Shown piece after piece: positions 1-7,889 of a stretch of DNA of 31,342 nucleotides; position 1 is the first letter of the stretch, and each line of letters starts with the position of its first letter. Source of the DNA: a virus; the IMG/VR virus record IMGVR_UViG_3300047200_000104, positions 1 to 31,342 of that record, one strand, 5' to 3'. The notes beneath the pieces are model-generated. The model was not told the DNA's origin and did not search any database. It saw only the letters and a list, made by a program, of their open reading frames with translations. Both the position numbers and the translations under genes were made by a program.

Positions 1-629
1 TTTGTTCCACCAAAACCTAATAATCTTTTACCTAAACTCTTAGCAACTGATAACCCAATAAGTCCTCCAATTGCTGGAAGATAGGTCATTCCAATACCAA
101 GTAAAGAACTAATTATTTTTTTAGGGTCTTTATTTAATATTCCTTCTAATAAATTAAATGCTGCCAATCCTCTAATAGCACCACCAGCCCCACTAAAAAA
201 TGAACCAACATACTGTTTAATGCCACCAAGTATATCAGTTTTTCTATCTCCTAATTCTTTCTTTCCAAATATTCTACCTCTATTTGCAATCCTTTTTCTA
301 TATTCTTCTACTTCTTTTTTATTTTGATCTTGAGTATTTTTATAATCTTCTGAAATAACTTGAAGTATTCTCTCCAAGTTATTTTTAGTTTGTTCAAGAT
401 TTAAAGTTACTTTACCCAAAGATGAAACATCTCTTTGAGTTGTTGTTATTCCATCATCTAATCCAGAAGATGTGGATGATTGTAATCTACTTACTATCTG
501 CTGAGGAATAGATCTTTTTGGTATTAATGATATTCTTCTAGTAATAGGAGACGCAAAAGATCCAAATCTAGTACCAGCACCAGATCCAAAAAATCTTAAT
601 AGTTTTTGTTTTTGATCTTCTGGGTTCAT
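1..629 (-). CDS. Partial virion/tail protein, putative tape-measure-like (3' end outside window)
   Basis: The gene reads from ATG at 629 and stays open to the window edge, giving at least 209 residues. Its ATG overlaps the stop of the upstream small gene as ATGA. Roughly residues 70-115 are charged and helix-prone, with many K, E and Q. The visible C-terminal part is rich in Gly and Ala with hydrophobic stretches. I recognise no catalytic motif. In many tailed phages the tape-measure gene directly follows the overlapping tail-assembly chaperone pair, and this gene sits in exactly that position after gp26 and its overlapping partner. A tail-length or hub role is therefore an inference from order and composition. 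The missing 3' part prevents a length check. It could equally be another hub structural protein. Confidence 0.6.
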   Translation of the reverse strand, partial: MNPEDQKQKLLRFFGSGAGTRFGSFASPITRRISLIPKRSIPQQIVSRLQSSTSSGLDDGITTTQRDVSSLGKVTLNLEQTKNNLERILQVISEDYKNTQDQNKKEVEEYRKRIANRGRIFGKKELGDRKTDILGGIKQYVGSFFSGAGGAIRGLAAFNLLEGILNKDPKKIISSLLGIGMTYLPAIGGLIGLSVAKSLGKRLLGFGGT

Positions 630-805
630 CTATTTGCTTTTGCTGCTTTTTCTTCTTCCTCTCTAATATGATTTTCAAGAAGGGACAAATAGATTTCTCT
701 TTCCCAAGGCATCATATTTTCAATCTCAGTCAAAGAGTATTTATGATACTGCATCAAGGCAAAATTAATTCTATAATAAGATTCTAAGTCTTCATGACTT
801 AGCAT
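626..805 (-). CDS. Small gp51-like / tail-assembly-chaperone T-part, 59 aa
   Basis: This 59-residue reading frame starts at the ATG that overlaps the gp26 stop (TAATG) and ends at TGA overlapping the next gene (ATGA). It is acidic and helical, with the motif MPWEREIYLSLL in the middle and a run of Glu and Lys near the end. The W-E-R-E-x-Y-x-x-L pattern resembles the C-terminal extension of tail-assembly chaperones, and small genes in this position of T4-like cyanophages are often labelled hub assembly catalyst gp51. No convincing Shine-Dalgarno sequence precedes its ATG. The frame is -1 relative to gp26 and is joined to it by a strong slippery signal. It may therefore be made mainly as the tail of a gp26 fusion. 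Translation by reinitiation is the alternative. Confidence 0.7.
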   Translation of the reverse strand: MLSHEDLESYYRINFALMQYHKYSLTEIENMMPWEREIYLSLLENHIREEEEKAAKANR

Positions 806-817
806 TATCCGAAAAAA
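784..817 (-). promoter_or_regulatory. Candidate -1 programmed ribosomal frameshift signal at the end of gp26
   Basis: On the minus strand the gp26 codons AGT TTT TTC GGA TAA contain the heptamer T TTT TTC (817 down to 811) in the register needed for tandem -1 slippage. Eight nucleotides later comes a perfect 7-bp hairpin, CTAAGTC-ATGAA-GACTTAG (802 to 784). The -1 frame after the heptamer runs into the 59-aa reading frame without a stop. Slippery heptamer, 5-9 nt spacer and stem-loop are the three known parts of such signals. Function is inferred. Confidence 0.65.
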
Positions 818-1536
818 CTTGATAACCCTTCAAGAACTATTTCATTATCAATTCCAGTTTTTGGATTCTTAACTGTCAATGTATGTGAAAGTTTGGGCAT
901 AGTATCAAAGAACTTTTCAATACCTTTGAATTGATTGGCATCAAAAGTTTGCAACCACTCCACAAGTTCTTTTCTAGTTACATCACCAGCAGACCAAGAA
1001 TCATCTTGGGTATAAACCATATCAACACAAGATGCTACAACATCAAAAGATTTATTGATAGTCTCTTCGCTATTACTTGGTTTAGTAAAGTCAAAGTTAT
1101 TATCAATAAATTCTTGAAGAGAAGGATACTTCATCTTCACTGTAATACTATCATCAATTTTAATTTCAGAACTATGACCTTCTGGAATCAATACTTGAAT
1201 CTCATCTACATTAATTGTAACATCAACTTGTGTTTCTCCATCATCAGGGCAGGTGATAATAAGGTCTACTGATTCACCTACAGATTTTGCTCTGATATTT
1301 AAGAACAGATATTCAATATCAAAACTTGGAAGAGTTTCAATCTTAATACCTCTGGTCAAAATACAATCTTTCAATACAGTTTTAACTGCATTATTAATAT
1401 CTTTTGAATCACCACTTTCCATAGCAAGGATTAAAATCTTTTCCTCCTTAACCAGAAAGGGTCTGTATTTAATTTGCTTTTTATTAGATGGAAGAGTCAA
1501 CTCATATGTTGGAGTTGCAACAATAGGTAAAGGCAT
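805..1536 (-). CDS. 26: Baseplate hub subunit gp26-like protein (T4_baseplate family), 243 aa
   Basis: The 243-residue protein starts with a short PTYEL segment followed by a KYRPFLVKEEKIL motif, characteristic of the T4 baseplate protein family that contains gp26. T4 gp26 is about 208 residues, so the length is comparable. The family acts in assembly of the central baseplate hub inside the infected cell. The central part carries an ITCPDDGE segment, and the C-terminal half is acidic with a Trp pair around DDSWSAGD. The last codons carry a slippery heptamer leading into the next frame, as in tail-assembly chaperone genes, so this product may act as a chaperone rather than as a mature virion part. 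A late promoter lies about 30 nt upstream. Membership is by recalled sequence pattern, not by search. Confidence 0.8.
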   Translation of the reverse strand: MPLPIVATPTYELTLPSNKKQIKYRPFLVKEEKILILAMESGDSKDINNAVKTVLKDCILTRGIKIETLPSFDIEYLFLNIRAKSVGESVDLIITCPDDGETQVDVTINVDEIQVLIPEGHSSEIKIDDSITVKMKYPSLQEFIDNNFDFTKPSNSEETINKSFDVVASCVDMVYTQDDSWSAGDVTRKELVEWLQTFDANQFKGIEKFFDTMPKLSHTLTVKNPKTGIDNEIVLEGLSSFFG

Positions 1537-1562: not shown

Positions 1563-1570
1563 TATTTATT
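1563..1570 (-). promoter_or_regulatory. T4-type late promoter upstream of gp26
   Basis: The minus strand reads AATAAATA, matching the NATAAATA late promoter recognised by gp55/gp33-modified polymerase. It overlaps the end of the upstream gene and lies 27 nt before the gp26 ATG. Confidence 0.55.
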
Positions 1571-2297
1571 ATGCAATAAAGGCATTAGGATTATCTGGTG
1601 TTCCAGTGGGAGGGATTCCACCAGTATCAATAACTCTAGCTGTTGGAGCATCTGATGGGCTGTTAATTTGTTTTCCATCATTTTTAAAGAAGGCATATAC
1701 ATCATAATTAAAAGTTACTGTGGTTTTTAATATACCAGATTGCTCATAAGAAATTGGAAGTGAAATTAAATTCACAGGAAAAGCGTTTCTTAAAATATAA
1801 GTACATCTATTTTTGGGCATTTCATAAACACCACCTTTAACCAATCTTTGATTTGGTTGTCTAAAATTTCTTTCAAATTTTGTAATTATAACTTCTTTTT
1901 GATATCCTACATTATTATTTCCTGGATAGTTAAACTTATTATATGATGTTCCAGGAACTCCTGAGTTAGGTGATATTTCTGCTATCCACTGTTCAAAAAA
2001 TTGAATAACTTTATAATCATAATCTACATAAAAACTTACATCAACAGAAGGATACACTCTTTTATTGGCAAAGGTCTCAGTTACACCTTGACTATCTCCA
2101 AAAACTTGTGTTGTTTCATATGAAGTTCCAGGAAGAACTGCCTCATAAGCTAAAAAATTTATATCATAGTTACTGACTCCACCAAAATCTTTTCCAGAAT
2201 TAACAAAAACATCAAAATAATTTGATAGTGATGGTTTAAACCTACTGACAATTTCATCAGTAGAATAATACAAATGTTTGTAGTCTGTTGCAGCCAT
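1569..2297 (-). CDS. Tail-tube-fold baseplate protein, gp54-like (tube initiator), 242 aa
   Basis: The 242-residue protein has the look of the gp19/gp54 tail tube family. It is beta-rich, with a FDVFV strand near the N-terminus, a long loop ending in LPGTSYET, a strand-rich core with DVSFYVDYDYK, and a C-terminal strand TVTFNYDVYAFF after a RNAFPVNL segment. Tube proteins and the tube initiator gp54 share this fold and stack under the sheath. Its neighbours are gp26 on the same strand and gp4 and gp48 across a divergent junction, consistent with a baseplate role. The tail after residue 215 is Pro-, Asp- and Thr-rich and probably disordered. T4 gp54 is longer (about 320 aa) and gp19 shorter (163 aa), so the exact T4 counterpart is uncertain. 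Confidence 0.6.
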   Translation of the reverse strand: MAATDYKHLYYSTDEIVSRFKPSLSNYFDVFVNSGKDFGGVSNYDINFLAYEAVLPGTSYETTQVFGDSQGVTETFANKRVYPSVDVSFYVDYDYKVIQFFEQWIAEISPNSGVPGTSYNKFNYPGNNNVGYQKEVIITKFERNFRQPNQRLVKGGVYEMPKNRCTYILRNAFPVNLISLPISYEQSGILKTTVTFNYDVYAFFKNDGKQINSPSDAPTARVIDTGGIPPTGTPDNPNAFIA

Positions 2298-7212: not shown

Positions 7213-7241
7213 AGTATATACCATATTGATTATTATGTCAA
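7213..7241 (-). promoter_or_regulatory. Sigma70-type promoter of gp32
   Basis: The minus strand has TTGACA (7241-7236), exactly 17 nt, then TATACT (7218-7213). The -35 box overlaps the last codons of the GIY-YIG endonuclease gene. This host-polymerase promoter would give early gp32 expression independent of the upstream cluster. Confidence 0.8.
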
Positions 7242-7889
7242 GTGCTTTAAAAAATCATCTCCCAAAATTTTTTTCATTTTTCTTTTTCCATTACAGCATT
7301 CTGAAACGTGACTTGCAGTACACCCCAAAATTTTAGAAGCAGATTTTATACTATCATAGATTTCTAAAAGATTTTTATTTTTATCAAACCTACCTATTGA
7401 TTTTCTATGTGGTTGAGAAAAAGTAAGTTTTTTCTTTGTTTCTTCTGAGTATACTTTACCTTTACTTGATTGTGATATTTTTCTTTTTTGTTCATCTGGC
7501 ATTACATATCCTAAATGAGATAATCTTAGATTATCTTTATGTTTTTGAGAAAATTTTATGCCTATTCTTTTTTTAGATATTTTTATTTTAGTATATTCAT
7601 TATGATCAGATTGATTTCCACCAATTAAAAGATTATATCCATTTGGATAAATGGATTTTTTTTGACTTATCCAATACACTTCTCTATCGTTCAATAAAGT
7701 TTTATCACATTCTTCAATAATATTAATAGTAAAGTAATCCCACCCATATTTACTTATAGCAGAATATAAAGGAGTATTTTTATTTTTAGCAGAATATTTA
7801 TGAGACCTTATTCTTGATTTTAAATCCTTTGCTTGACCTATGTAAACTTTATTATTTTTATTATTTACAATCTCATATATGACTGCCAT
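7233..7889 (-). CDS. GIY-YIG homing endonuclease with NUMOD repeats, 218 aa
   Basis: The N-terminal ~90 residues are a GIY-YIG nuclease domain. The family motif pair appears as IYEIVN and KVYIGQ (residues 4-19), followed by the catalytic Arg region KSRIRSH and a NDREVYWI helix with the metal-binding Glu. Residues ~100-160 contain NUMOD3-type DNA-binding segments such as GIKFSQKHKDNLRLSHLG and GKVYSEETKKKL. The C-terminus has a NUMOD1-like helix-turn-helix (SIKSASKILGCTASHVSECC). These freestanding mobile genes cut a neighbouring allele in related phages and spread by recombination. It sits between the gp59/DUF1825 genes and gp32, the same neighbourhood as SegG in T4. It has its own sigma70 and late promoters. 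It is very AT-rich compared with flanking genes, which fits recent acquisition. Confidence 0.93.
   Translation of the reverse strand: MAVIYEIVNNKNNKVYIGQAKDLKSRIRSHKYSAKNKNTPLYSAISKYGWDYFTINIIEECDKTLLNDREVYWISQKKSIYPNGYNLLIGGNQSDHNEYTKIKISKKRIGIKFSQKHKDNLRLSHLGYVMPDEQKRKISQSSKGKVYSEETKKKLTFSQPHRKSIGRFDKNKNLLEIYDSIKSASKILGCTASHVSECCNGKRKMKKILGDDFLKHLT

Follow-up and report, generated by a model that had tools for sequence, protein, structure and literature searches.

The locus examined here raises the question of whether two neighbouring frames of a phage, gp26 and a small gp51-like frame, encode two separate proteins or the short and long forms of a single one. The window, meaning the whole stretch of 31,342 nt (31.3 kb) that was analysed, comes from a T4-like cyanophage, as indicated by its genes for psbA (D1), PhoH, and a single-strand DNA binding protein of T4 type, and the clade of this phage is one of freshwater cyanophages. 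Frameshifting in the −1 direction is well known in the tail chaperones of tailed phages. We consider it very probable (about 0.93) that gp26 and the gp51-like frame are one tail-assembly-chaperone (TAC) gene, giving TAC-N and TAC-NC by way of predicted −1 frameshifting, with a hairpin probably helping. This reading builds on the observed sequence and register of the junction, on its conservation, on the homology of the fusion to gp51 along its full length, and on a fold predicted for gp26 that resembles a TAC.

Slippery junction at the end of gp26

The features of the junction and its surroundings are as follows.

805..1536, minus strand: gp26, or TAC-N, the zero-frame product of 243 aa (PF12322, phrog_150; annotated in relatives as a baseplate hub subunit)
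811..817, minus strand: slippery heptamer T_TTT_TTC, in register, 10 nt before the gp26 stop, counted start to start
805..807, minus strand: zero-frame stop TAA of gp26, whose last A also begins the −1-frame ATG (TAATG; sequence)
803..810, minus strand: 8-nt spacer GGATAATG from heptamer to hairpin (sequence)
784..802, minus strand: 7-bp hairpin CTAAGTC-ATGAA-GACTTAG, probable stimulator (folding; pairing in close relatives; family structure peak)
626..805, minus strand: TAC-C (gp51-like), in the −1 frame, 59 aa counted from its ATG (phrog_634; homology to the C-terminus of T4-type gp51)
626..1536, minus strand: TAC-NC, predicted frameshift product of 303 aa, 242 + 61 (virtual translation; full-length profile alignment to gp51)
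1569..2297, minus strand: tail tube protein gene, upstream of gp26 (phrog_45, E 8.7e-26; PF23849 Phage_TTP_2, E 1.3e-11)
3..629, minus strand: candidate tape measure gene, of which the window holds the start only before it ends (position)

The 3′ end of gp26 reads AGT TTT TTC GGA TAA, which places the heptamer in the zero-frame register for −1 slippage, and the −1 frame is open through to position 626. The base-level description in the initial annotation (the end of gp26, the register of the heptamer, the spacer, and the hairpin at 784–802) holds at every coordinate. Its open −1 frame of 59 codons with a W-E-R-E-x-Y motif was likewise found, as WEREIY within 626–805, and the fusion that it predicted at about 300 residues comes to 303 by virtual translation. 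The conserved motif of TAC-C is NFALMQ-HKYSLTEIENM-PWEREIY. The window, of 34% GC, contains 39 in-register X_XXY_YYZ heptamers in 42 ORFs (9,706 codons), and of those lying no more than 40 nt from a stop, gp26's alone opens a long −1 frame (63 codons; runner-up, 20). A gene for a GIY-YIG type homing endonuclease (7233–7889, minus strand) has an in-register TTTTTTA 19 nt before its stop, with an open −1 frame of 20 codons, and this occurrence is probably due to chance.

According to the proposed mechanism, the majority of ribosomes would terminate at the UAA of gp26, producing the 243-aa TAC-N, and a minority would slip one base back on U_UUU_UUC, where tRNA-Phe in the P and A sites would re-pair together on UUU UUU, producing the 303-aa TAC-NC. 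The hairpin at 784–802 would probably aid the slip.

Conservation among relatives and the case for frameshifting

A total of 176 related loci were collected, 80 of them by way of gp26 and 80 independently by way of the downstream domain, together with isolate phages of Synechococcus, Prochlorococcus, Methylophilales, Pseudomonas, Ochrobactrum, Aeromonas, Stenotrophomonas, Vibrio, Delftia, and Salmonella. These gave 143 distinct junctions, and counts over them are not independent because the sequences are related; this kinship is controlled for by contrasting the junction with other Phe codons of the same genes. Relatives that lack the heptamer or keep the two genes in unrelated frames, which the initial annotation had named as counting against the idea, were looked for specifically: TAC-C lies in the −1 frame relative to gp26 in 141 of 143 junctions, and T_TTT_TTN is present in 142 of 143, exactly 10 nt before the stop in 140 of those 142. 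Both the heptamer and the −1 relation persist down to relatives at 23–33% identity (L086–L090 and L094), and the zero-frame stop itself differs (TAG in 61, TAA in 59, and TGA in 22).

The conservation extends to codon choice. Among 41 conserved gp26 columns, ranks 1 and 2 in synonymous conservation belong to the pair of Phe codons in the heptamer, the first being TTT in 141/141 and the second TTC in 131/139. The preceding residue is variable (Ser, Asp, Asn, Ala, or Gly), with the last base of its codon always T. Other Phe-Phe pairs within the same genes form T_TTT_TTY in only 5/140 cases, and the other conserved pair, at residues 209–210, has mixed codons (TTC/TTT 89/51, then TTT/TTC 115/18). 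Because they are conserved in this manner, the heptamer, the frame, and the predicted fusion are, by sequence comparison, far beyond chance.

The sole junction without T_TTT_TTN is that of Salmonella phage Vi01 (L091, Ackermannviridae), where AATTTTC replaces the canonical heptamer and could be a different slip site; a weak C-domain match is retained in the −1 frame of this homologue. In Synechococcus phage S-SCSM1 (L084, MK867354.2; locus 1470–1510), the heptamer is intact and, compared with L108, a net 11 nt have been inserted after it. TAC-C is kept there in the +1 frame, and since the insertion has moved the C-domain, −1 slippage would meet a stop. The insertion is either a sequencing error or the mark of a phage that gave up the fusion. 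In the records of S-CAM1, S-WAM2, S-H9-1, and S-PRM1, the C-domain is encoded and its gene unannotated, an omission that is common in public cyanophage records.

The closest competitor to frameshifting alone is that both routes operate in the window's phage, with frameshifting giving TAC-NC and some reinitiation at TAATG giving free TAC-C, as the initial annotation had allowed. We regard this combination as rather unlikely. The overlap occurs in the window and in the relatives nearest to it (L001, L002, L007, L009, L010, and L011), but conservation already breaks down inside the close clade, where L003–L006 and L008 have GATAGTC in its place and no start codon there; moreover, free TAC-C has no known role. 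Over the 16 codons that follow the slip, ahead of the conserved core, ATG is missing from 41/142 junctions, and 26/142 contain none of ATG, GTG, and TTG; an SD-like sequence precedes the first ATG of TAC-C in 3/101 cases, compared with 48/141 for gp26. A free C-domain from reinitiation may be a small addition in the window's phage, but, as judged from these sequences, reinitiation cannot be the mechanism shared by the family.

Far less probable is translational coupling without any fusion, in which termination at the UAA and reinitiation at the overlapping AUG (UAAUG) would yield a separate 59-residue protein. Such coupling would agree with the UAAUG of the window, with the ATG found shortly after the slip in relatives (at zero-based codon index 5 in 74 and 4 in 16), with the annotation of gp51 as a separate gene in GenBank records, and with S-SCSM1, which broke the −1 fusion yet retains TAC-C. 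Pure reinitiation was nonetheless rejected, since start codons and SD-like sites are so often missing and since it would not account for a heptamer so strictly conserved at the synonymous level; the encoding of the fusion as one chain in other myophages also speaks against it.

Slightly less credible still is transcriptional slippage, in which the polymerase would slip on the T6 run and generate mixed mRNAs. Runs of this kind are able to promote polymerase slippage, but the conserved register and stop spacing, the preference for TTC over T7, and the downstream stem fit tandem tRNA slippage better. Finally, the reading of the heptamer as a by-product of conserved Phe-Phe residues in an AT-rich genome, with an accidental −1 relation, was rejected as highly improbable: the low GC content, the many in-register heptamers of the window, and the conservation of the C-terminal Phe-Phe in T4 gp26 as well (GLKEFFELL) would suit it, but synonymous conservation is specific to the junction pair, the codons at 209–210 being mixed, and the −1 frame is kept almost throughout.

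RNA stems downstream of the heptamer

The perfect 7-bp hairpin described in the initial annotation is present 8 nt after the heptamer, but its conservation in the window's clade is no more than moderate, and marine relatives use another stem. By itself, the stem folds at −6.8 kcal/mol, and a perfect stem of at least 7 bp arises in 648/3000 mononucleotide shuffles when G-U pairs and loose spacing are allowed, so that taken alone the hairpin does not stand out statistically. The 50 nt after the heptamer fold with z = −1.90 (10/200 shuffles equally stable), and a 91-nt fold at the junction gives z = −0.87. Because RNAalifold, run on the window's clade, missed this 7-bp stem, its pairs were tallied directly. 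Among 27 close relatives, 83.6% of the stem's cells are paired, compared with 21–52% for slid partners, and covariation is weak, both bases having changed in two of the pairs. On these comparisons, the hairpin of the window is a probable, modestly supported stimulator.

Across the family, folding in 45-nt windows reaches its minimum mean z of −2.52 exactly after the heptamer, with the window's hairpin inside this peak, and non-overlapping windows more than 20 nt away never fall below about −1.3. In a marine subset, a 10-pair stem that begins 5 nt past the heptamer is 88.9% paired and has 19 double-change cells where shuffles give 4.9 ± 1.9, its covariation score lying above all 500 shuffles. 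Since this subset was chosen partly for pairing, the compensatory changes outweigh the pairing percentage as evidence. The same helix is the best-paired among 561 ten-pair helices in 122 unselected sequences. Other members have a shorter stem, GATCC, of 5 bp at a distance of 10 nt, setting three stem types side by side: 7 bp at 8 nt in the freshwater clade, a covarying 10–11 bp at 5 nt in marine phages, and this short one. Several distant relatives have no strong stem after the heptamer. The strongest stimulators seen, in the marine junctions L117 and L170, combine T_TTT_TTA with an 8-bp stem of very high stability, GGGCTCTC-ACAT-GAGAGCCT.

Differing stems downstream of the same heptamer lead us to suggest that the slip site is fixed and the stimulator turns over. 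The fuller proposal, that the slip site is essentially frozen across T4-like cyanophages, that the stem has been replaced more than once, and that S-SCSM1 has apparently left the −1 fusion, is one on which we remain evenly divided. The stem turnover and the S-SCSM1 exception may be new.

Protein identity, gene neighbourhood, and known systems

The gp26 protein matches PF12322 (T4_baseplate, E 2.7e-73) and phrog_150 (E 3.2e-79), and TAC-C matches the PHROGs family phrog_634, baseplate hub assembly catalyst (E 6.5e-28), with no family found in a Pfam scan of the 59-aa frame. Both sets of profiles, phrog_150/PF12322 and phrog_634, are named as baseplate hub proteins; in T4 itself, gp26 and gp51 are listed as hub assembly chaperones, and cited genetic work puts gp26 in the hub (PMC3004832). 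Single-gene gp51 proteins of T4, Aeromonas phage ZHF, and Klebsiella phage KP1079 align along the whole 303-aa fusion, across the junction, and this alignment of the virtual fusion with gp51 spans profile columns 25–292 of 306 (E 2e-19). In ZHF, the C-domain match lies at residues 200–246 of gp51. For T4 gp26, the alignment is confined to the N part and stops at the Phe-Phe (E 4.4e-19). As coding potential, the locus holds a short and a C-terminally extended form of the same protein, and since gp51 matches the whole fusion, some phages therefore encode as one gene what the window's phage would need a frameshift to make.

For an AlphaFold2 model of gp26 (mean pLDDT 83.7), VIA ranks the HK97 tail assembly chaperone 2ob9 first, at Z 8.0, a value at the edge of the range reached by chance best matches; next come 3klu (YqbN, Z 7.0) and unrelated entries down to 2.4. 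About 86 N-terminal residues of the model superpose on 2ob9 (rmsd 3.5 over 84 residues), at only 6% identity and with some 150 further residues in gp26. Foldseek gave no significant match for the model in the PDB (2ob9, E 1.3), and a PDB sequence search with the gp26 profile returned chance matches only. The N-domain of gp26 has a TAC-like fold as predicted by the model. The proposal of the initial annotation that gp26 and its partner are the tail chaperone pair of this phage gains support from the full-length gp51 alignment, the 2ob9 match of the N-domain, and the conservation of the frame.

The gene order is tail tube, TAC, and a candidate tape measure, with the tail tube gene adjoining TAC. 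The gene after the chaperone encodes 527 aa in L181, a contig near-identical to the window, and its identity as a tape measure is plausible from position. The earlier expectation that the tape measure comes next fits in this respect, but homology did not bear it out: tape measure profiles did not match the 527-aa protein, which had lytic-domain matches only, and tblastn of the gene as a tape measure against phages gave no match. Between L181 (2233–3816) and L186 (8001–9710), both termini of this gene are conserved and the middle domain is swapped, being a DPBB lytic transglycolase in L181 and a different region in L186; in the second gene past the chaperone, a peptidase M23 is present in L186 and absent in L181. 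In S-PM2, the large protein directly after gp51, S-PM2p209 (L180:957–4460), has an N-terminal ADP-ribosyltransferase-like stretch (PF01129, E 1.3e-5) beside a phage tail lysozyme domain, and it is possibly an ejected virion protein.

The slippery site of the window, T_TTT_TTC, is unlike that of lambda, G_GGA_AAG, and no detectable sequence similarity to gpG/gpGT is claimed. The likeness lies in a short form and a −1-frameshifted long form, an adjoining tail tube gene, and a site near the end of the short gene (PMC5009743). In lambda, the tape measure is bound by gpG, and a low level of −1 frameshifting yields gpGT, whose additional domain attaches to tail tube subunits; the two occur at a ratio of 30:1, and both are absent from the virion (PMC5009743). 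By analogy, TAC-N would coat the tape measure protein, the C-domain of TAC-NC would recruit tail tube subunits, and the short:long ratio would matter in tail assembly.

Within T4-like phages, Vladimirov et al. reportedly found the frameshift conserved in several groups and absent in T4's own. The TAC genes of these phages (gp26/gp51), identified by Vladimirov, Gautam and Davidson (2022, Virology 566:9–15, doi 10.1016/j.virol.2021.11.003), belong to the same gene family as the window's (PF12322/phrog_150 and phrog_634). Some T4-like phages have separate short and long genes, according to a passage of PMC10885494 citing that study, and a passage of PMC12846349 credits it with −1 signals of poly-T type in the TAC-N genes of these phages. 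In T4 and its close relatives, gp26 (TAC-N) and gp51 (TAC-NC) are separate complete genes, whereas the window has one locus from which both would come by predicted frameshifting. A similar arrangement is described in passages of PMC12846349 for the TAC of Pseudomonas phage Adele and of Vandenendeviridae/Andersonviridae, myoviruses with a conserved −1 frameshift, an invariant poly-T GTTTTT, and a downstream frame misannotated as a separate gene; these phages belong to another family, and those passages report no downstream stem. The window's junction is a solid site and, with the TACs of T4-like phages published in 2022, a point absent from the initial annotation, a further example of a kind already known in this group.

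The finding corrects a widespread annotation of gp26 and gp51 in T4-like cyanophages, which have been recorded as two baseplate-hub proteins, or with gp51 missed, and are, on the present evidence, a shorter and a longer version of one tail assembly chaperone. T4's two genes then look like an alternative answer to the same need, a view reportedly put forward by Vladimirov et al. The family also offers a large natural data set in which an invariant slip site is combined with changing stimulators and, if true, a frozen slip site with replaced stems would constitute a natural series on the tuning of the short:long chaperone ratio.
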